In this document: in pieces, positions 31,646-44,357 of the stretch | Layout: every line of letters begins with the position of its first letter | How positions within the stretch are numbered: the stretch's first letter is position 1 | Source of the DNA: Ignavibacteriales bacterium | GTDB lineage: Bacteria > Bacteroidota > Ignavibacteria > UBA10030 > SZUA-254 | DNA: 64,000 nt | Direction: 5' to 3' | Assembly (NCBI GenBank): GCA_016214905.1 | Contig: JACRMQ010000007.1 | Location: 62,001 to 126,000, forward strand | Made by a program: the position numbers and the translations under genes | Notes under the pieces: model-generated | What the model was told of the DNA's origin: nothing | Seen by the model: only the letters and a program-made list of their open reading frames with translations | Database searches by the model: none

Positions 31646-32920
31646 ATGATTACAAACCGTAGATCTTTTATAAAACAAGTAACCGGTGGTATTATCGGCA
31701 CATGGGCTTTGGTTTCGGTTCCTGAAATCTCAAAGGCACGGTATATTATTTCGGGTAATCAACAAATCCCAATGGATGATGAACCATTCTGGAAAATTGT
31801 GAGGGACCAATTCCCACTTACACACGATCGTATTTATTTCAACAACGGAACAATGGGTCCTTCTCCTTTCGTTGTCCGAGAAGCAGTGAAAGGATTCATT
31901 GATAATATTGATGTATCCGGCGAGTACGGTGGGTGGGACACAGCACGTCCGAAACTTGCTAAGTTTGTGAACGTTGATGAATCTGAGATATCGCTAACGC
32001 ACAATGTTACCGAAGGAATCAATGTTGTTGCTTGGGGTTTACCGCTGAAGAAAGGTGACGAAGTAATTCTAACCAATCATGAACACGCCGGAAACGCACT
32101 ACCGTGGTTGAACAGGGCAAAGTACGATGATATCATTATTAAGATTCTGAAACCGGCACAAACTGCTTCAGAAAATCTAAACCGCATTAACGATCTGATA
32201 ACAAAAAGAACAAGAGTAATTGCTATTCCTCATATCACCTGTACGATCGGACAAGTATTTCCAGCTAAAGAGATAACGAAACTCGGCCACGATAAACGTT
32301 TGTGGGTTTTCTTCGACGGGGCTCATGGTCCCGGTATGACGATGCTCGATCTCAAAGATATCGGGTGCGATTTTTACGCGACATGTTGTCATAAGTGGAT
32401 GTGCGGACCCAAGGGCACCGGATTTCTGTTCGTTCGCAAAGAGATGTTAGATGTTTTGCAGGCAAAATGGATAGGTGGCGGTTCGGATATCGGTTGGGAT
32501 ATGACCGTTGATCCACCTGAATTCAAAGGATACGTAAACACCGCACACCGATATGATTTTGGAACTCAGAATGCCGCCATTTATCAGGGATTGAGCGCCG
32601 CGACAGATTTTCTTTATCACATAGGAATGGAGAATATTGTTCGCCGTGGAAATGCTTTGTCGGGTTATCTGCAGCAAGAATTGATGAAATTAGAAAAAGT
32701 TGAAATGCTCACACCTGTTGAAGAGCAGTCACGCGGTTTCGTTGTCGGATTCCGTCTGAAGAATATGTCATACGATAAGTTTGGAGAACATGCGACAAAA
32801 AACGGTTTTCGCATCCGGCTCGTTGGAGAGAACAATCTGAATTCTATCCGCATCTCGACTCATATTTATAATAACTTTGAAGAAGTGAATAAATTTATAG
32901 AAGTAGTAAAACAAATCTGA
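31646..32920 (+). CDS. Tat-exported class V aminotransferase-like PLP enzyme
   Basis: The fold-type I PLP enzyme of 424 residues begins with a twin-arginine signal (NRRSFIK followed by a hydrophobic run to about residue 31). The PLP-binding features are VFFDGAH with D224 and the Schiff-base lysine K250 in CCHKWM. The closest recognised group is class V aminotransferase/isopenicillin-N-epimerase-like proteins. A Tat signal implies folding with cofactor in the cytoplasm before export. The substrate is unknown. AAAGGG at 31634-31639 is the ribosome binding site. A hairpin at 42-75 bases past 32900 (32942-32975) follows it. Confidence 0.83.
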   Translation: MITNRRSFIKQVTGGIIGTWALVSVPEISKARYIISGNQQIPMDDEPFWKIVRDQFPLTHDRIYFNNGTMGPSPFVVREAVKGFIDNIDVSGEYGGWDTARPKLAKFVNVDESEISLTHNVTEGINVVAWGLPLKKGDEVILTNHEHAGNALPWLNRAKYDDIIIKILKPAQTASENLNRINDLITKRTRVIAIPHITCTIGQVFPAKEITKLGHDKRLWVFFDGAHGPGMTMLDLKDIGCDFYATCCHKWMCGPKGTGFLFVRKEMLDVLQAKWIGGGSDIGWDMTVDPPEFKGYVNTAHRYDFGTQNAAIYQGLSAATDFLYHIGMENIVRRGNALSGYLQQELMKLEKVEMLTPVEEQSRGFVVGFRLKNMSYDKFGEHATKNGFRIRLVGENNLNSIRISTHIYNNFEEVNKFIEVVKQI

Positions 32921-32941: not shown

Positions 32942-32975
32942 GGATTACCATGATTCTAATCTGTTATGGTGATCC
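32942..32975 (+). terminator. Possible stem-loop terminator after the aminotransferase gene
   Basis: The arms GGATTACCAT (32942-32951) and ATGGTGATCC (32966-32975) pair over ten positions with one G-U. The 14-base loop contains a shorter GATT/AATC pair. No run of T follows, so it may be an mRNA-end hairpin rather than an intrinsic terminator. Confidence 0.3.
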
Positions 32976-33082: not shown

Positions 33083-34900
33083 ATGAATCGTTCTTTCAAA
33101 ATCTTTCCGTATTTTTATATTCTCACATTTCTTGTATTCCATGATTTTATCATCTCCCAAAATAAATATCATTCGTATGATGAAATGACAAAACTAATCC
33201 ATGCCTCTGTGTCTTCTCACAAAGATATCGCTAAAGTTGAGTCGATTGCGAAAACTATAGAGAACCGAGATATCTGGGCTATCGCTATTGGCGGAAAAGA
33301 CGCAGATAGTCGACATGCGATTTTGGTGTTAGGTGGTGTTGAAGCAGAGCGGATTATCGGAAGCGAACTGTCTGTGAGGTTCATAAACTTCCTTCTTGAT
33401 AATTACGGGAAAGTCGACAGCATTACTCAATTGGTGAACTCATCAACATTTTATATTCTTCCGCGTGTGAACCCTGATGCGAGCGAAGAATTTTTCAGAA
33501 AACCTTTAAATGAACGAACTCTCAATGCTCATCCAACCGACAACGACAGAGATGGGATTCTGGATGAGGATGGATTTGAAGATTTGAACGGAGATGGTTT
33601 TATTACAATGATGCGAGTTAAAGATAATCGTGGTGAATGGATCCCCCATCAGAACGATCCGCGCATTCTGCGTAAAGCCGATCCATCTAAAGGTGAAATC
33701 GGATTATATAAACTTTTCACGGAAGGAATCGATAACGATATTGATGAACAGTGGAACGAAGATGATCGTGGTGGAGTAGATTTTAATCGTAACTTCCCTC
33801 ACAATTATCAATTTTTCAGTAAAGGTGCGGGACCTTATCAAATTTCCGAAGTTGAATCAAGGGCGGTAACGGAATTTTGTTTTTCACATCCTAATATAGC
33901 CGCCGTGTTCACATTCTCATCAAATGATAACTTGATGAATCCTTGGAAAAAAGAACAGAAACAAGGACCTCCCCCTTCAACCGAGGAACGATCCGGACGA
34001 CGAAGAATAATGGATGATGAAGAGTCGGCACCGCGATTGATTACATCTGTGTTGGACGAGGATGAGCAATATTTTAATTTTATAAGTAAACAATATCAAG
34101 AGATAACAAAATTTAAAGGAGCTCCTCAAAGTACGAAAGGCGAAGGCGCATTTAGCGAGTGGGCGTATTACCACTTCGGCAGATGGTCTTTTTCAGTTAA
34201 TCCCTGGTGGATTCCGGAGATCGGGCAGAAGAAAGATACATCAACTGTTGATTCGACAAAGATAAAAAAGGAAAATGACAAAAAGGGAATTGGTGATGAG
34301 AATAAAATAGACCTGAAAAAAGGGAAAGGTACTGATGAGAAACCGGATGAATATACAGGTCAGCTAAACGCGTTGAAATGGCTCGATGCCAATGGAATTA
34401 AAGACGGATTTATTAACTGGACGAAAATAAAGCACAAAGATTTTCCGGATAATGATGTTGAAGTCGGCGGTTTTAAACCGTACATCCAAACAAATCCACC
34501 GGCGGACAGCATTGGAACGATTGCAGAAAAAGAAAACACATTCCTGGCATGGTTGGGTTCTAAATTACCCGCAATTGAAATCAAGGACATAAAAATTAAG
34601 TCGCTTGACAATAAAGTTTACCGGGTTACCGCGTCAATCGTCAATAACGGTTATTTGCCAACAAACAGCGCGATGGGCAGTAAAGCACGTTGGCAGAGGA
34701 ATGTTAAAGTATCAATCGGTTTATCCAAAGATCAAAAACTTTCTGCCGGAAAATTAATTAACATTATTTCCCCTATCAAAGGAAGTGGAGGAAGTCAAGA
34801 ATTAACATGGCTGATAGTTTCTGCCGCAGGAGAGAAGATAACAATATCCGCAGAAAGTCCTGTTTCGGGAAGTTCAATTCAAATTATTACGTTGAAATAA
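33083..34900 (+). CDS. M14 carboxypeptidase-like protein lacking the zinc site (pseudo-peptidase)
   Basis: This 605-residue exported protein (signal peptide residues 8-26) aligns along its length with the intact M14 peptidase encoded next to it. At the zinc site the HGNE of the neighbour is EAER (E87, R90), the third ligand His is S279 (FTFSSND against QTYHNSG), NPDGR is NPDAS, and the SNELW catalytic Glu region is SVNPW. All metal ligands and the catalytic residue are therefore missing. Calcium-loop-like inserts (DNDRDGILDED, DLNGDGF) remain. A lysine-rich low-complexity segment lies near residues 385-425. Function may be binding or regulation, not hydrolysis. Confidence 0.85.
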   Translation: MNRSFKIFPYFYILTFLVFHDFIISQNKYHSYDEMTKLIHASVSSHKDIAKVESIAKTIENRDIWAIAIGGKDADSRHAILVLGGVEAERIIGSELSVRFINFLLDNYGKVDSITQLVNSSTFYILPRVNPDASEEFFRKPLNERTLNAHPTDNDRDGILDEDGFEDLNGDGFITMMRVKDNRGEWIPHQNDPRILRKADPSKGEIGLYKLFTEGIDNDIDEQWNEDDRGGVDFNRNFPHNYQFFSKGAGPYQISEVESRAVTEFCFSHPNIAAVFTFSSNDNLMNPWKKEQKQGPPPSTEERSGRRRIMDDEESAPRLITSVLDEDEQYFNFISKQYQEITKFKGAPQSTKGEGAFSEWAYYHFGRWSFSVNPWWIPEIGQKKDTSTVDSTKIKKENDKKGIGDENKIDLKKGKGTDEKPDEYTGQLNALKWLDANGIKDGFINWTKIKHKDFPDNDVEVGGFKPYIQTNPPADSIGTIAEKENTFLAWLGSKLPAIEIKDIKIKSLDNKVYRVTASIVNNGYLPTNSAMGSKARWQRNVKVSIGLSKDQKLSAGKLINIISPIKGSGGSQELTWLIVSAAGEKITISAESPVSGSSIQIITLK

Positions 34901-34910
34901 GGAGATTATC

Positions 34911-36692
34911 ATGATTGAAAAGATTATAAATATTGGAATAATTTTAACGATAAATTTTGGATTGGTAGTTTTAACTAACTCAATGTCATTCTGTAAGGCA
35001 GAAAAGGAATTAACACAAAGCTCACTCAAGGCTTTGGGTGCGCCTAATAATCCGAAGGTTGAAGTTTTTTGGAATCGCTATTACGACAGCAAGGAGATCG
35101 GCGAGATATGCAAAAGGATTGCAGAAGCATATCCGAAGTTGGCAAAGGTCAGCAGTATTGGCAAATCATATGAGGGAAGAGAAATATGGTTGTTGACTAT
35201 TTCGAATTCAGAAAAAGGAAATCCGGATAAAAAACCCGCAATGTATATTGATGGGAATATACACGGAAATGAAATTCAAGGAGGTGAAGTTTCACTTTAC
35301 ACGGGGTGGTACCTAGCTGAGATGTACGGACACCTTGATTGGATTACACAACTCGTGGATGAGAAAACCTTTTACATCATCCCCACAATCAATCCCGACG
35401 GCAGATATCATTTTATACACGACGCGAACAGTCCGAATTCACCGCGTTCAGGTTTCGATCCGCGCGATGACGACGGAGACGGATTGATTGATGAAGACGG
35501 TGACGATGATCTTGATGGTAATGGCAACATAACACAAATGCGCATTAAAGATCCGAACGGCCGCTGGATAACCGATCCTGACGACCCACGAATTATGATT
35601 CAAGCGAAACCCGACCAAAAAGGAGAGTACGAATTAATTTGGACAGAGGGAATTGATAACGACGGCGACGGTCTGGTGAACGAAGATGATCCGGGTTCAT
35701 ACGATCCGAACAGAAACTGGCACTGGAAATGGGCACCGCAATATGTTCAGTGGGGTGCAGACCGGTACCCCGGCTCTTTGCCTGAAACCAGAGCCGTTGT
35801 TGATTTTGTTTCTAAGCACGACAACATCGCGGCATTTCAAACATATCACAACTCAGGCGGAATGATATTGAGGGGACCGGGAAACAAGGATGAGGTATCA
35901 ACTTACAGGTGGGAAGATTTGCAGGTATACGATTTCCTCGGGAAATTAGGAGAGGAAATCTTGCCGGGTTACAGATATTTGATTGTCTATAAAGATTTAT
36001 ATCCGGTTTATGGTGGTGAACTTGATTTCTTCTATGGTGTGCGGGGTGGTATTACATTTTCAAATGAATTATGGACGTCTTTTGATTATTTCCGAAAAAA
36101 ACAGGATGAAGAGCGCAGTTGGTTCGGCGGACAAAAGGAAACTTACCGGTTTGATAAACTTTTACTTTTCGGTGAGGGGATTGTCGATTGGAAATCTTAC
36201 AATCATCCACAGTTTGGTATGATAGAGATTGGTGGAATAAAAAAAGCGTGGACTCGCACAGCGCCATCGTTTCTTTTGGAAGAAATGTGCCATCGAAATA
36301 TGGCATTCACTCTTTACCACGCATATCACACTCCGCAGGTTCAAGTCGACTCTGTCTTCATAAAGGACTTGAAACAAGGTTTAACAGAAGTAACCGCTGT
36401 AGTAAAAAACTCGCGTATGATTCCAACTCACACATCGCAGGACATAGTAAATAAAATTTCACGTCCGGATTATATTAGTATAACAGGAGGAAAAGTGTTG
36501 TCGGGCGGAATTTTGGAAAATAGATTTACCGGCGAAGTTGTTGAACAAAAACGCAATCCTCAAAGTATCGAAGCAGAGAATATACCCGGGATGGGCGCGG
36601 TTTATGTTCGTTGGATCGTAGATGGTAAAGGGCCGTTTACAATAACCATTGATGCGTCTAAAGGCGGTATCAGTTCTAAAACTGTAAAATAA
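34911..36692 (+). CDS. Exported M14 zinc carboxypeptidase
   Basis: This 593-residue M14 metallopeptidase has the complete site: H118 and E121 (HGNE), H313 (TYHNSG), catalytic E386 (SNELW) and the substrate arginine in NPDGR. Two Asp-rich calcium-loop-like inserts (DDDGDGLIDEDGDDDLDG and DNDGDGLVNEDD) interrupt the catalytic domain. A hydrophobic N-terminus (residues 4-25) predicts export. A C-terminal domain of about 120 residues has a beta-sandwich look. An AAGGAG ribosome binding site lies before the ATG, ten bases after the pseudo-peptidase stop, so the pair is one transcript. Confidence 0.9.
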   Translation: MIEKIINIGIILTINFGLVVLTNSMSFCKAEKELTQSSLKALGAPNNPKVEVFWNRYYDSKEIGEICKRIAEAYPKLAKVSSIGKSYEGREIWLLTISNSEKGNPDKKPAMYIDGNIHGNEIQGGEVSLYTGWYLAEMYGHLDWITQLVDEKTFYIIPTINPDGRYHFIHDANSPNSPRSGFDPRDDDGDGLIDEDGDDDLDGNGNITQMRIKDPNGRWITDPDDPRIMIQAKPDQKGEYELIWTEGIDNDGDGLVNEDDPGSYDPNRNWHWKWAPQYVQWGADRYPGSLPETRAVVDFVSKHDNIAAFQTYHNSGGMILRGPGNKDEVSTYRWEDLQVYDFLGKLGEEILPGYRYLIVYKDLYPVYGGELDFFYGVRGGITFSNELWTSFDYFRKKQDEERSWFGGQKETYRFDKLLLFGEGIVDWKSYNHPQFGMIEIGGIKKAWTRTAPSFLLEEMCHRNMAFTLYHAYHTPQVQVDSVFIKDLKQGLTEVTAVVKNSRMIPTHTSQDIVNKISRPDYISITGGKVLSGGILENRFTGEVVEQKRNPQSIEAENIPGMGAVYVRWIVDGKGPFTITIDASKGGISSKTVK

Positions 36693-38964: not shown

Positions 38965-41900
38965 TTACTTTGACAAAACAGTTTTCTTCACGTCAGAATA
39001 TATGCCTGCCCTCATCCGGATAAAATAGATTCCGCTGGGTAATTGTTGTGCATTCCAAGTGGCGGACTTGAATCCGGCAACCTGCAACTCGTCCACAAGT
39101 GTTGTTATTTCCTCACCAAGAACATTATATACCTTTAACGTTACCCAGCTCTCCTTTGGTAATTGATAATTGACAATCGTTGTTGGATTGAACGGATTAG
39201 GATAGTTCTGCTGAATGGCATACTCGGTCGGTATACATATTCCAAGATCTGTCACACCATCACCGAAGTCTGTGAAGAACGAAAATGTATCGGGTGAAGC
39301 AACAACATCATATCCATCGGTTGCTGAAACTGTCCAATTATAATATTGATGCATTTGTAATTGCGCTTCGATATCCATACTCACGGCTGTATCGCTTATA
39401 CCTGTCAGCGTGGTGTCAATTCCAGGTCCTTTAATATTGATAGAGTAAAGAACTGAATCTTCAACGTCTAAATCTATCGACCTATTCCAGATAAATTCAA
39501 TTGGTCCACCGTGTGGCAAGTAGAAAGTTGAGCCGTTACCCGGAAAACTTAAATTAACCGTTGTTGGTTTATGATTTATGATCGAGAATATCATGTTTGC
39601 CGATGTTCCGCCACCCGGTTCCGGATTCACGACCGATATATTTCTATCACCTAACATTGCATTCAGCTCAATAGAAATAAACGCGATAATTGTATCCGAA
39701 CCATTATATGCTGCTGAATCGATTTTCATGCCCGCTCCAGCGTTGATTATTGTTTGACCGGGAATAAAGTTGCTTCCGACTAATACTACTCTCATCATCT
39801 GTCCACGATACCCGGAAGAGGGTATGATCGCAGTAAACGTTGGAACCGGATTCAGAGTAAGTGCGAACTTTACGAAAATTGAGTGATTGGCACTTACGTT
39901 ATAAAATGTATATCCTGAAGTTGAATCCACAACCTCACCATCAACTAAAACCGAATCTACATGATAACCGATCTTAGGTGTTAATATAAATCGTTGGTCT
40001 GATCCATAATTTGCAACAACAACACCATTCGGAGTAATTGTACCGTTAGAATCAGCTGATGCTGTAATCGTAAATTTTGCAATTGAGAAGAATGCCGTTA
40101 TCGAATGATTCGTGGTTATATTTATGAATATATAACTAAATGTAGAATCTACGCGGATTCCATCAACCACAACGCTGTCGAGTCGATAACCATTATTCGC
40201 AGCGATAATGAACTTCTGATCAACTCCTGAGTCTAGCCCTATCGAACCGGATGGACTAATTGTTCCACCTCCTATTGCAGATGCGGTAATTATATATTTG
40301 TTGATTGAGAAATATGCAACAATAAAATGATTAGCAGATACGTTTGTGAATGTATAACTCGCCAATGAATCTACTCGAATCCCATCAACCAAAATACTAT
40401 CTGTTTTAAAATTAAGGTCAGGAGTTATTATAAATTGCCGGGATGAACCGTGAGTTACCCCTACCATTCCTACCGGGCTGATGCTGCCATTCGAACCGGC
40501 TGATGCAATAATAATGTAATTGTTGATAGCAAACTTCGCGTGAATAGTGTGGTTGGCCGTAATATTTGTAAATGTATAACTCGCTATTGAATCTACATGA
40601 TTTTCATCCACGAATAAACTGTCGATGTGGTATCCTGCATCGGGTGAAATAATGAATTTTTGATTAGAGCCGTAAGGAATCGTAATATTCCCCGATGGAT
40701 CTATCGTTCCACCCAATCCAGATGTTGCTGCTATAGTAAAAAGGTCAACCGAAAAGTTCGCAACAATAAAATGTTCCGATATTACATTGTCGAATGTGTA
40801 ACTCAAAGATGAATCGACGCGAGCACCGTCGACCAACAAACTATCGAGATGATATCCGGTGGAAGGAGCGATAGTGAACTGCTGACTTCCTCCATGGTTT
40901 ATTAAAATAGTGTCTGCAGGTGTAATTGAACCATTGCCCAATGCAGCGGCAATTATCCTGTATTTATTGATTGCGAATTTTCCCTCAATCGTATGATTTG
41001 TCGAGATATCTTTGAATGTATAAGAATCACTTGAATCAACAAAGATACCATCAACTAGAACAGTATCAACGTGATAACCATAGTTCGGTGTTAAAGTAAA
41101 TCTCTGAGCCGATCCAAAAGTTACCAGAACAATCCCCATCGGATTTATTGAACCATTTGCGCCGGCAGTCGCCGTGATATTATAGATGTTGATTGAGAAG
41201 TATGCTGTAATTGCATGGTTCCCGGTAACATTATTGAATGAGTAAGTTGAAGCTGAATCAACGTGCAAACCATCGACCAATAAACTGTCAAAGTGATAGC
41301 CGGTATTGGGATTGAAATAAAAATCTTGGTTCGATCCGTACGATGTAATCACCGACCCCGAAGGAGTAATTACACCGTTCCCATTGACAGATGCAGTGAT
41401 TGAATATTTATTGATGGAGTAATATATATGAATTGAGTGGTTCGCTGTGATGTTGGTGAATGTATAATTAGTGCTGGAATCTACAATAGAACCGTCGACT
41501 TTTACACTGTCGAGATGATAACCGAGTCCGGGTGCATATGAGAAAGATTGACTCCCGGCATATGCTACCGAAACAGCACCCGACGGAGTTATTGATCCGC
41601 TACCGGTGATCAACGATGTTATTGTATATTTATCTATTGAAAAGTATGCAGTAATTGTGTTATTGGATGTAACGCCGCTAAAACTATAATTTGATCTTAC
41701 TCCCTGATTCACTCCATTCACAATTACACTATCGATATGATAATGTATTGATGGAGTAATCGTATAACTTTGAGCACCACCGCGAGTAACAAATGTTTCT
41801 CCGGATGGTGTTATTGTTCCGCTTCCAACAGCGGAACTTGTAATTTTCCATTGAGTTAAAACTGCTGAAGTGACTTCATCGGCACCCATATAAGGATATG

Positions 41901-43962
41901 AACTATTTCTAGCTTCTTCATCAAAGTCTGTAGAGACTGCAACAAGCGGCGTGCCTGATAAATTATTATCTCCAATTGAAACGCTGGCAAGATGTAAATT
42001 TCCTATTGCTGCATCTGCAAACGAAACAGGCACATTCATGGAATTAATATCCAAACCCGATCCTGATTTCCACTGTGCGAATGATGCGGCAGTTGTGCCG
42101 CCATCATAACTTCCCAAAATATTCGGATCGGATGAGTACAAAACATTGTAATCACTTGTCAGATTTAGCTGGTTGTTTATCGCGATAGCGGGATGTTTCC
42201 CCGTCCCACCCGAACGAACATTTGAAAAAATATTATTATTCAAAATATTTATACCGGGGTATTCTCGGAAAAACGCCGCCGAGTTACTGCTTCCCGAATC
42301 TACACTACCTCCGATGTAAACGGTATTATAATAGAAGTTGCTATTACCGGACGGCTTATATATTCCGGCGATGTTGTAATTGCCGTTTTCGTACGATCCC
42401 AAACTAATCATATTGTTTATGTAATCACCGAATCCGGCCGCGATCTGAATTCCGTAAATTGTAGAGCCGGGATTGGAGTTTGCAAGTTGGATGTTATAAA
42501 CTTTATTCCTGTCTATTGTAAGTGTTCCACCCGATGTTCCGCTCGATTGTATACCTGAAGCATCAAGGGTGTCGACGCCGGAATTATTCTGAAATAAATT
42601 ATACACAACATTGCGAGAAATTGTTGAACCGCTTTGTAATGGTAAACTCGTCATGATTCCAACCAAACCGGATGTCCGCAAGGAAGAATATGTATTGAGG
42701 TCATGTATAGAATTATTTTCTATTTTATACAAAGATAGACCGCCATTTTGGTAAATTCCACGTGTACCTGAATTGACATGAGAAGAGTTATCGGTAATAT
42801 TGCTGATTGAATTGTTCATTATCCTTATCAAACCACCCGTTCTATTTGCATCACTGTAAATACCAGAAACTCGACACGTAATAATAGTTGGTGCGTTTAT
42901 TAAACTGTCTATGATATTTCCCGATATAGTTCCTATTTCATAATCAGCATTACCACCGGTTACATAAATTGGTCGTAAATCACCGTAACCCGAAGTCCAT
43001 AAAACATTTTTAATAATATTCCCCTGAATAGATGAAGCGATACCGCCGGTTCCGGCATTCAAGTAGATTCCAAAAAAATGTCCGCCCGATTTTGTCCATG
43101 TTCCATTTACGTTTTCAAAACTTCCACCGATTCTATTTCCGGAAATTGTGAAGCTATGTCCTGTATTATTATTGTTGACTGAAAATATTGAATACTGATC
43201 CTGCCCCGAAGTAAACGGACAATAAAAATGATTATTGCTTATAGTATAGTTACCACCCAAATATGCAGATGCTCTGAAATTAATCCCATAATTTGTGAAA
43301 CCGTATATGCGGGAATTAGTGAATGATAGATTATCATTCTCAGCACCTAACGTTCCATCGATGTAAATGGCGTTGTATGGATTTCCACCGCTGCTGTTTA
43401 GAATGTGACAATTGTCGATACTGATGTTATCGTTGCCCGTTGTCCCCGAGCTGTTAGATATGACAATTACCCCAGATGAAGTTGATGTGTTTATTCCCTC
43501 TACAAAGATATAGTTGACCGAGTTATTCAAAGCATCGTTTATAAATCTGATTGTAGGATTAGTCGCGTTAAGATTGTTGAAACGAAGATACATCCCACTA
43601 CCGGAAAACCTGCCATCGATAGTCACATTATCTGCTCCAGAAAAATTCACTAGAGGGGCTGCAACGTTTCCCGAAATTAACCTCTCTGTTGTTCCATCGG
43701 ATGTAATTGTCACCGATGAATAATTCGAACTGCCTGTACCGCTTGCAAAAAGGACTGCAGATCCCGTTTCAGTAATATCGGACGTTATAACCAGATTAAT
43801 ATCACCAGTTAGCGTTCCATTGTTGATAGCGTTAAAAGCCGTCGCTAGTTTTGTGTATGTTTGTCCGGAACCGACGTATGTTTGTGCAGACAAATTTAAA
43901 ACAGCTCCGATGAATATGAACAAAAGCGTAAGAATTTTGATAGTTTTCAAGTTACGAATCAT
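38965..43962 (-). CDS. Large T9SS surface protein: beta-helix plus nine InlB-like repeats
   Basis: From the ATG at 43962 (signal peptide ending LNLSAQ) the protein has 1665 residues. Residues to about 700 hold many short Asn/Gly-rich repeats with phrases like NSISNIT and NNSIHD that suggest a right-handed parallel beta-helix. Nine tandem copies of a roughly 74-residue bacterial repeat follow (41860 to 39855), each with an opening I-ASA-GNGSI-P-G, then YGS-Q-F, GYHIDS and YTF-N-TANH. An IPT/TIG-like domain, a fibronectin-like domain and a T9SS sorting domain (QQNYPNPFNPTT, SGIYFIRM) close the chain. An adhesin or surface scaffold role is inferred. Confidence 0.85.
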   Translation of the reverse strand: MIRNLKTIKILTLLFIFIGAVLNLSAQTYVGSGQTYTKLATAFNAINNGTLTGDINLVITSDITETGSAVLFASGTGSSNYSSVTITSDGTTERLISGNVAAPLVNFSGADNVTIDGRFSGSGMYLRFNNLNATNPTIRFINDALNNSVNYIFVEGINTSTSSGVIVISNSSGTTGNDNISIDNCHILNSSGGNPYNAIYIDGTLGAENDNLSFTNSRIYGFTNYGINFRASAYLGGNYTISNNHFYCPFTSGQDQYSIFSVNNNNTGHSFTISGNRIGGSFENVNGTWTKSGGHFFGIYLNAGTGGIASSIQGNIIKNVLWTSGYGDLRPIYVTGGNADYEIGTISGNIIDSLINAPTIITCRVSGIYSDANRTGGLIRIMNNSISNITDNSSHVNSGTRGIYQNGGLSLYKIENNSIHDLNTYSSLRTSGLVGIMTSLPLQSGSTISRNVVYNLFQNNSGVDTLDASGIQSSGTSGGTLTIDRNKVYNIQLANSNPGSTIYGIQIAAGFGDYINNMISLGSYENGNYNIAGIYKPSGNSNFYYNTVYIGGSVDSGSSNSAAFFREYPGINILNNNIFSNVRSGGTGKHPAIAINNQLNLTSDYNVLYSSDPNILGSYDGGTTAASFAQWKSGSGLDINSMNVPVSFADAAIGNLHLASVSIGDNNLSGTPLVAVSTDFDEEARNSSYPYMGADEVTSAVLTQWKITSSAVGSGTITPSGETFVTRGGAQSYTITPSIHYHIDSVIVNGVNQGVRSNYSFSGVTSNNTITAYFSIDKYTITSLITGSGSITPSGAVSVAYAGSQSFSYAPGLGYHLDSVKVDGSIVDSSTNYTFTNITANHSIHIYYSINKYSITASVNGNGVITPSGSVITSYGSNQDFYFNPNTGYHFDSLLVDGLHVDSASTYSFNNVTGNHAITAYFSINIYNITATAGANGSINPMGIVLVTFGSAQRFTLTPNYGYHVDTVLVDGIFVDSSDSYTFKDISTNHTIEGKFAINKYRIIAAALGNGSITPADTILINHGGSQQFTIAPSTGYHLDSLLVDGARVDSSLSYTFDNVISEHFIVANFSVDLFTIAATSGLGGTIDPSGNITIPYGSNQKFIISPDAGYHIDSLFVDENHVDSIASYTFTNITANHTIHAKFAINNYIIIASAGSNGSISPVGMVGVTHGSSRQFIITPDLNFKTDSILVDGIRVDSLASYTFTNVSANHFIVAYFSINKYIITASAIGGGTISPSGSIGLDSGVDQKFIIAANNGYRLDSVVVDGIRVDSTFSYIFINITTNHSITAFFSIAKFTITASADSNGTITPNGVVVANYGSDQRFILTPKIGYHVDSVLVDGEVVDSTSGYTFYNVSANHSIFVKFALTLNPVPTFTAIIPSSGYRGQMMRVVLVGSNFIPGQTIINAGAGMKIDSAAYNGSDTIIAFISIELNAMLGDRNISVVNPEPGGGTSANMIFSIINHKPTTVNLSFPGNGSTFYLPHGGPIEFIWNRSIDLDVEDSVLYSINIKGPGIDTTLTGISDTAVSMDIEAQLQMHQYYNWTVSATDGYDVVASPDTFSFFTDFGDGVTDLGICIPTEYAIQQNYPNPFNPTTIVNYQLPKESWVTLKVYNVLGEEITTLVDELQVAGFKSATWNAQQLPSGIYFIRMRAGIYSDVKKTVLSK
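39855..41860 (-). repeat. Nine tandem ~222-bp coding repeats (InlB-like repeat modules)
   Basis: The segment encodes nine consecutive modules of about 74 residues that share the same start, GYH-DS core and YTF-N-TANH ending. They have diverged enough that exact DNA identity is not obvious, so the expansion is not recent. Different module counts between strains would be likely. Confidence 0.8.
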
Positions 43963-44357
43963 AATAAAGATTTCAGAATAATAATTGTGAAAAATACGAT
44001 GAGCAGTCAACGGCATCATATCCGTCCGCGTCTCGGGAAATTATGAACCTAATTTAAAAAAACTTTCTATAACTCAAAGTGAAGTGTGTCACCAATCTCA
44101 TGCTTTTGAAATCCTCAAAATCCGACTGATTTCCTATAAAACGGGTCTTTTTATCTTAAAAGAAACTATATCGATATCCGTTCAATCTATAAATTGAGGA
44201 CAGGAAAATAATATTATAAACATAACCACGAACGAATGTCATGAAAATATTTTATGGTAAGGGGTAAAATCTGCTGTCTTATTTGTTAAAGCGGGCACAT
44301 ATGCAAAAATTAAATGTGCGGATGGAACATTCCCGCATATTCAACACTCAAGTAGAA
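43963..44357. other. Intergenic region between the surface protein and efflux operon
   Basis: This 395-base region contains the upstream DNA of the surface-protein gene and the 3' region of the RND operon. A weak stem (GCGG at 44318-44321 with CCGC at 44333-44336, with GGAA/TTCC inside) is followed on the minus strand by T-rich sequence and could end the efflux transcript. No RNA gene was seen. Confidence 0.35.

Follow-up and report, generated by a model that had tools for sequence, protein, structure and literature searches.

Active and degenerate peptidase subunits are joined in one complex in TldD/TldE, a cytosolic system of unrelated fold, and pairs of this kind are also known in M16B and M23 peptidases. 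In the M16B family, the zinc-less half of MPP alpha/beta is required (PMC11266112), and in TTHA1264/TTHA1265 one member is described as monomeric and inactive alone, its partner being encoded by the neighboring gene (PMC12731061). Helicobacter pylori Csd1/Csd2 (M23B) is a heterodimer of a catalytic and a degenerate metallopeptidase (PMC5053510). Within M14, the third M14 domain of carboxypeptidase D is inactive and has been proposed to present substrate (PMC11266112), and the passages cited from the M14 section of the same 2024 review mention pseudopeptidases of this family from vertebrates and yeast only. Here we describe two neighboring M14 genes, one without and one with a complete catalytic site, in a 64,000-nucleotide stretch of DNA (the window) from an Ignavibacteriales bacterium (assembly GCA_016214905.1, 3.3 Mb in 10 contigs; contig JACRMQ010000007.1, positions 62,001 to 126,000). 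With moderate confidence, we favor the view that they form a conserved M14 system of two components, probably exported; the protein lacking the site (referred to as dead) would serve its neighbor (live) as a non-catalytic subunit or substrate receptor.

By architecture, the dead/live pair would resemble the M16B, Csd1/Csd2, and carboxypeptidase D systems; it belongs to neither M16 nor M23, as M14 was the sole Pfam match of either protein (E-value 0.1) and the best fold matches of both were M14. Like MPP, TTHA1264/TTHA1265, and SPH2681/SPH2682, as these M16B pairs are described, it comprises two homologous genes, one without a zinc motif, which in bacteria are neighbors; like Csd1/Csd2, it combines a catalytic with a degenerate member. 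The M14 pair, a putative complex, differs from the former, which belong to another family of clam-shell endopeptidases, and from the latter, which are described as having the M23 LytM fold and dimerizing via helical domains. Carboxypeptidase D, in the account cited, also has an inactive M14 unit alongside active M14 units, but in a single animal polypeptide with transthyretin-like domains rather than in two bacterial genes. AEBP1/ACLP, CPXM1, CPXM2, and Ecm14 are M14 pseudopeptidases like the dead protein (PMC11266112, PMC7706225), but are eukaryotic, and the passages cited name no adjacent active partner; moreover, Ecm14 is reported to carry N144D/R145H and to have lost E270 (PMC7706225), whereas the dead protein of the window keeps the Asn and Arg and has lost the zinc ligands. 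By sequence and fold, the closest solved relative of each protein, or one of the closest, is carboxypeptidase T (M14). Unlike the pair, it is a single active enzyme and, at about 323 residues, has neither the long Asp-rich insert nor the C-terminal module. A preliminary description of the window had called the combination of a pseudo-enzyme with an active partner not commonly described. This is correct for M14 within the openly licensed literature searched, where no bacterial dead/live pair was found (most subscription papers lie outside this coverage), but as a general design such a combination has precedents in M16B and M23.

Both genes are on the forward strand, and the two open reading frames are separated by 10 nt:

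33083..34900, + strand: dead M14 homologue, 605 amino acids, N-terminal hydrophobic (signal-like) segment (open reading frame, Pfam M14, AlphaFold2 model)
34911..36692, + strand: live M14 homologue, 593 amino acids, N-terminal hydrophobic segment, intact site (open reading frame, Pfam M14, model)

The encoded proteins are homologous (29% identity over 550 columns, E-value 3e-44) and scored 100.2 bits (dead) and 143.5 bits (live) against the Pfam M14 model, for which the gathering cut-off is 21.6. Residues of the catalytic site were located by alignment as follows:

35262..35273, + strand: HGNE zinc motif of the live protein (H118, E121)
35847..35849, + strand: H313, third zinc ligand of the live protein
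36066..36068, + strand: E386, catalytic Glu of the live protein
33341..33352, + strand: E87-A-E-R90, former HxxE of the dead protein
33917..33919, + strand: S279, replacing the third zinc His of the dead protein
34199..34201, + strand: N373, replacing the catalytic Glu of the dead protein
33785..33790, + strand: N235-R236, kept in the dead protein (motif VDFNRNF; equivalent to carboxypeptidase A (CPA) N144-R145)

The site of the live protein (H118, E121, H313, N267-R268, Y364, and E386) aligned with that of carboxypeptidase T, the phmmer alignment matching it at the NR pair, third His, Tyr, and Glu. With HxxE, third His, and catalytic Glu all present, as the preliminary description had it, the M14 catalytic site is complete and the protein looks like a working enzyme. 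The losses that it had listed for the upstream protein were likewise found, both HxxE ligands being replaced (HGNE to EAER, at E87 and R90), the third His by S279 and the catalytic Glu by N373; in addition, T351 occupies the position of Tyr248. It was wrong on one residue, the substrate Arg, because VDFNRNF retains N235-R236 at the position of N144-R145, which in CPA are described as gripping the substrate C terminus (PMC7706225). For Arg127, the alignment left the counterpart in the dead protein (possibly its R145) ambiguous.

Models of the single chains were built with AlphaFold2 using the family alignments as input, giving mean pLDDT values of 83.4 for the dead protein (51 rows) and 89.5 for the live protein (55 rows). 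The nearest solved structures of both models were M14 enzymes, and the dead model matched carboxypeptidase T 6f79 with Z 32.8 and rmsd 2.6 over 286 aligned residues. Together with the Pfam score, this supports the earlier proposal that the upstream protein retains the M14 fold, as predicted by the model; low confidence affects, among other stretches, residues 294-317 and 383-420 of what used to be the catalytic half.

For site counts across the family, 56 dead rows were used (window included) after dropping fragments shorter than 290 amino acids, which removed a dead piece each from genomes G152 and G221 and a live piece each from G131 and G300. The first His position was E in 29 rows, K in 12, D in 9, A in 3, and T in 1 (2 gaps), and the HxxE Glu position was H in 24, Q in 10, D in 7, R in 5, S in 3, V in 2, I in 2, and L in 1 (2 gaps). 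At the third His position, G (25) and S (24) predominated over T (3), A, E, and N (1 each; 1 gap), and at the catalytic Glu position P (34) and R (11) over N (5), D (3), and Y (1; 2 gaps). Among scorable dead rows, the site residue was thus kept in 0/54, 0/54, 0/55, and 0/54, respectively, and no orthologue with an intact site was seen. Live rows had the first His and the HxxE Glu in 56/56 cases (one further row being gapped there), the third His in 56/57 (Leu in G221), and the Tyr and the catalytic Glu in 57/57. All 51 dead proteins of the dead-family alignment A3 nevertheless matched the Pfam M14 model. The pseudo-enzyme reading of the preliminary description is therefore strongly supported: the zinc ligands and catalytic Glu are absent from every scorable dead row, and the dead protein can be regarded as an M14 homologue whose sequence marks it as catalytically incompetent.

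Ligands displaced to other positions were sought as His, Cys, Asp, or Glu residues conserved in at least 70% of dead rows. Only two His residues reached this level, H364 (88%) and H451 (98%), the latter shared with the live protein as H432. As the two form no motif and the conserved acidic residues are mostly those of Asp loops shared with the live clade, this candidate was rejected, and no conserved substitute ligand set was found. It is quite improbable, in our estimate, that the dead protein performs a new chemistry in the old pocket, either metal-free or with another metal. Some residues are indeed conserved specifically in the dead clade, the H69 position is acidic in 38/54 and the E72 position His in 24/54 dead rows, and some lineages show a reversed E/D-x-x-H; however, the three ligand positions present 22 combinations (three including gaps) rather than a constant set, and the E/R/S of the window makes no zinc site by known M14 chemistry. 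The dead protein of genome G156, with E/D/E at these positions, may bind metal.

Among the positions conserved in the dead clade only are N237, H364, R367, S369, and W375, so the old pocket region is under a constraint of its own. As a whole, the two catalytic halves are less conserved in the dead clade than in the live clade (mean top-residue frequency 0.51 versus 0.68, and 0.47 versus 0.58). These residues also bear on the idea that the dead protein serves solely to inhibit the live enzyme or to help it fold, in the manner of a detached prodomain and with no role toward substrates. Its gene lies upstream and would be made first, the live protein has no prodomain by Pfam, and the crystal structure of Csd1/Csd2 is described as showing the groove of Csd1 filled by the tail at the C terminus of inactive Csd2 (PMC5053510). 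A helper would not obviously need H364, R367, S369, and W375 conserved in its former catalytic half, however, and we regard this explanation as improbable, if less so than a new chemistry.

The Asp-rich loops, which the preliminary description had correctly noted in both proteins, lie as follows:

33539..33595, + strand: Asp-rich loop 1 of the dead protein, residues 153-171 (D155, D157, and D167 invariant in alignment A3)
33722..33763, + strand: Asp-rich loop 2 of the dead protein, residues 214-227
35466..35525, + strand: Asp-rich loop 1 of the live protein, residues 186-205
35646..35687, + strand: Asp-rich loop 2 of the live protein, residues 246-259

The insert is equally conserved in the two clades (mean top-residue frequency 0.65 dead, 0.67 live). 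As an interface specific to the pair, the loops were rejected: 10/10 inspected solo M14 relatives carry them together with HxxE, so they are ancestral and no mark of the pair. A separate group of solo M14 proteins (L193-L202), which share this Asp-rich insert and have GRHSGE or NQHDNE, occurs in genomes with and without the pair.

Phylogenies were computed for a chosen subset of 66 rows and, more quickly, for 108 rows, using only those of at least 480 amino acids. In the 66-row tree, the 27 dead and 31 live rows were each split off by one branch with support of 100/99, and 8 solo M14 rows formed the outgroup with weaker support (94/72). Branching was mirrored, with three deep lineages found in both the dead and live halves, and the quick tree gave the same two clades (52 dead and 55 live rows). 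The simplest history would be a single loss of the site on the stem leading to the dead clade, predating the divergence of the sampled families. Genome G462 has a second, deeply different dead/live pair (L175:4944-8854), and its two pairs come from two of the deep lineages.

Selection was estimated from dN/dS (Nei-Gojobori) in 11 gene pairs. Values for the dead gene were 0.042-0.081 in 9 of the 10 computable pairs and 0.228 in G211/G231, one of the 11 being saturated; those for the live gene were 0.011-0.057 (6 of the 11 pairs computable). These ratios indicate strong purifying selection on the dead gene. That it is a decaying relic is accordingly a very remote prospect: its faster evolution relative to the live gene would fit, as would the occurrence of broken copies (the dead gene of G152 is split into two open reading frames, L091:4234-5864), but ratios of 0.04-0.08, frames open in nearly all fetched lineages, and the clade-specific conserved residues all speak against it. 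For most lineages, the relic reading is refuted by dN/dS together with the survey.

The distribution of the pair was surveyed within the phylum, in sets of 60 relatives, 391 class genomes, 395 phylum genomes, and one family of 92. Close relatives of the dead protein (E-value <1e-160) were found in 10 of the 60 relatives, in all 10 with the live gene adjoining on the same contig. A dead profile of 11 rows (1e-20), which picks up live proteins too, matched 29/391 class and 42/395 phylum genomes, and a live profile matched 28/391 class (1e-60) and 36/395 phylum genomes (1e-100). All 28 live-gene genomes of the class fall within the 29 dead-profile genomes, and in the phylum the dead gene is also present in 35 of the 36 live-gene genomes; in the lone live-only genome, G494, the live gene sits at the start of a contig. 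Seven phylum genomes matched without having the dead gene, namely G494 and six with solo HxxE M14 genes. In the family of 92, 19 genomes matched at 1e-60; the unit is thus patchy, as expected of an accessory trait.

In the survey of relatives that the preliminary description had suggested, 52 of the 59 fetched loci and the window had the dead gene immediately followed by the live gene in the same orientation, a heterodimer-type layout of adjacent homologous genes with one degenerate. Gaps in the 52 linked loci ranged from -544 to 86 nt, the large negative values being an artefact of choosing the first start codon, and were at most 20 nt in 45. Live-then-dead order was seen in none of the 59. 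Of the remaining seven, five are truncated where a contig ends (G340, G342, a piece of G356, G330, and G350) and two are from G156; the loci of G369 and G494 and new matches from the 92-genome family search stand outside the 59. Because the linkage is conserved in dozens of lineages, it exceeds chance, and since the genes flanking the pair vary between lineages while the pair persists, the two genes alone are the unit. Local duplication in one genome was rejected as an origin, the pair being found across the phylum. The contig search gave four metagenome-assembled loci (Chlorobiaceae, Bacteroidetes, Bacteroidota, and Ignavibacteriales bacterium), and the plasmid search returned one relative over 96% of the query, from Halomontanus rarus, which has HxxE, has no second M14 gene annotated alongside, and forms a long outgroup branch in the quick tree.

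A partner role for the dead protein is the natural inference from this near-invariable adjacency, and as the unit recurs across the phylum, the dead twin is a maintained protein and probably the partner of the enzyme. In the scheme we favor, ancient duplication of an M14 carboxypeptidase bearing Asp loops would have given two genes, the upstream one becoming unable to bind zinc or to catalyze at the root of its clade and being retained ever since beside the active copy. The dead protein would associate with the live enzyme as a non-catalytic subunit and may present or select peptide substrates without cutting them, thereby shaping the choice of the live enzyme. The receptor idea stems from the site itself, because dead proteins keep the Asn (50/56) and usually a basic residue (44/56; R 26, K 17, H 1) where M14 enzymes hold the peptide C terminus. 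Several observations weigh against this scheme. Adjacency also fits two independent proteins of one pathway, and in G156 the dead and live genes are unlinked, on two contigs and away from contig ends, a true exception. No natural dead-live fusion was present among the listed open frames of the surveyed genomes, and the dead gene evolved faster than the live gene in every pair for which both ratios could be computed. In addition, the Tyr equivalent to Y248 is missing and the R145 position lacks a basic residue in 12/56 dead rows, so that retention of the C-terminus clamp is less than strict.

Part of this evidence would suit a dead protein that binds peptides on its own, as a receptor or scavenger in the same pathway, and makes no contact with the live enzyme. 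Its fold and the Asn/basic pair at the position holding the C terminus are retained, both genes look exported, and those of G156 are unlinked; yet a near-invariable order and adjacency across the phylum, amid shifting flanks, exceeds what a shared pathway usually needs. We consider this unlikely, albeit the strongest of the alternatives. A bolder version of the two-component reading can be put forward only tentatively and is on the doubtful side: an obligate, phylum-wide M14 heterodimer, older than the bacterial families that carry it, whose zinc-free twin would use a C-terminus clamp to hand peptides to the active twin, an independent counterpart of M16B alpha/beta.

Export of both proteins is suggested by the hydrophobic N-terminal segments of the window's two proteins, found likewise in 47/50 dead and 49/54 live complete rows when only these were scored by a simple hydropathy rule. 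Co-transcription of the two genes, which appears probable, follows from the 10-nt gap and the placement of one feature:

32942..32975, + strand: terminator-like hairpin separating the upstream PLP-enzyme gene from the pair (consensus match only)

No terminator-like hairpin was found between the dead and live genes on the + strand, in a scan of a weak type. Directly upstream of the pair, 31646-32920 encodes an aminotransferase-class-V (pyridoxal phosphate, PLP) protein with a Tat-like N terminus (RRSFIK), which weakly resembles periplasmic PvdN (141 bits versus a cut-off of 650); a PLP gene is likewise upstream in three other f1 contigs, all those with the upstream side visible. Further downstream, 38965-44019 encodes a 1684-residue protein that combines a secretion-system C-terminal sorting domain with divergent InlB B-repeats. 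Neighboring genes gave no general lead to function, the flanks being mostly unrelated. A tricorn-like protease (Pfam) lies downstream of the pair in G017 (f4, L048:10504-13770) and a DPP-IV-like peptidase in G229 (f6, L081:8722-11028), hinting at peptide use in these genomes. The live gene is interrupted by a stop in G131 (L087:3737-5566) and in pieces in G369 (L204:498-2172). Genomes G152 and G221 (f14) have two live copies after the dead gene; the first of G221 (L098:508-2229) has Leu for the third zinc His and retains HxxE, Tyr, and Glu, perhaps a second site loss in progress.

The dead proteins carry a warning for annotation, in that they match the Pfam zinc carboxypeptidase model and hence look like enzymes, though they are not. 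The M14 pseudopeptidases treated in PMC11266112 are animal and fungal, and their relation to active cousins is left open there. Here a compact, probable bacterial operon comes in tens of natural variants, its active partner is defined, and on the simplest reading the site was lost a single time, so the question of how a pseudopeptidase relates to its partner becomes testable in a simple expression system.

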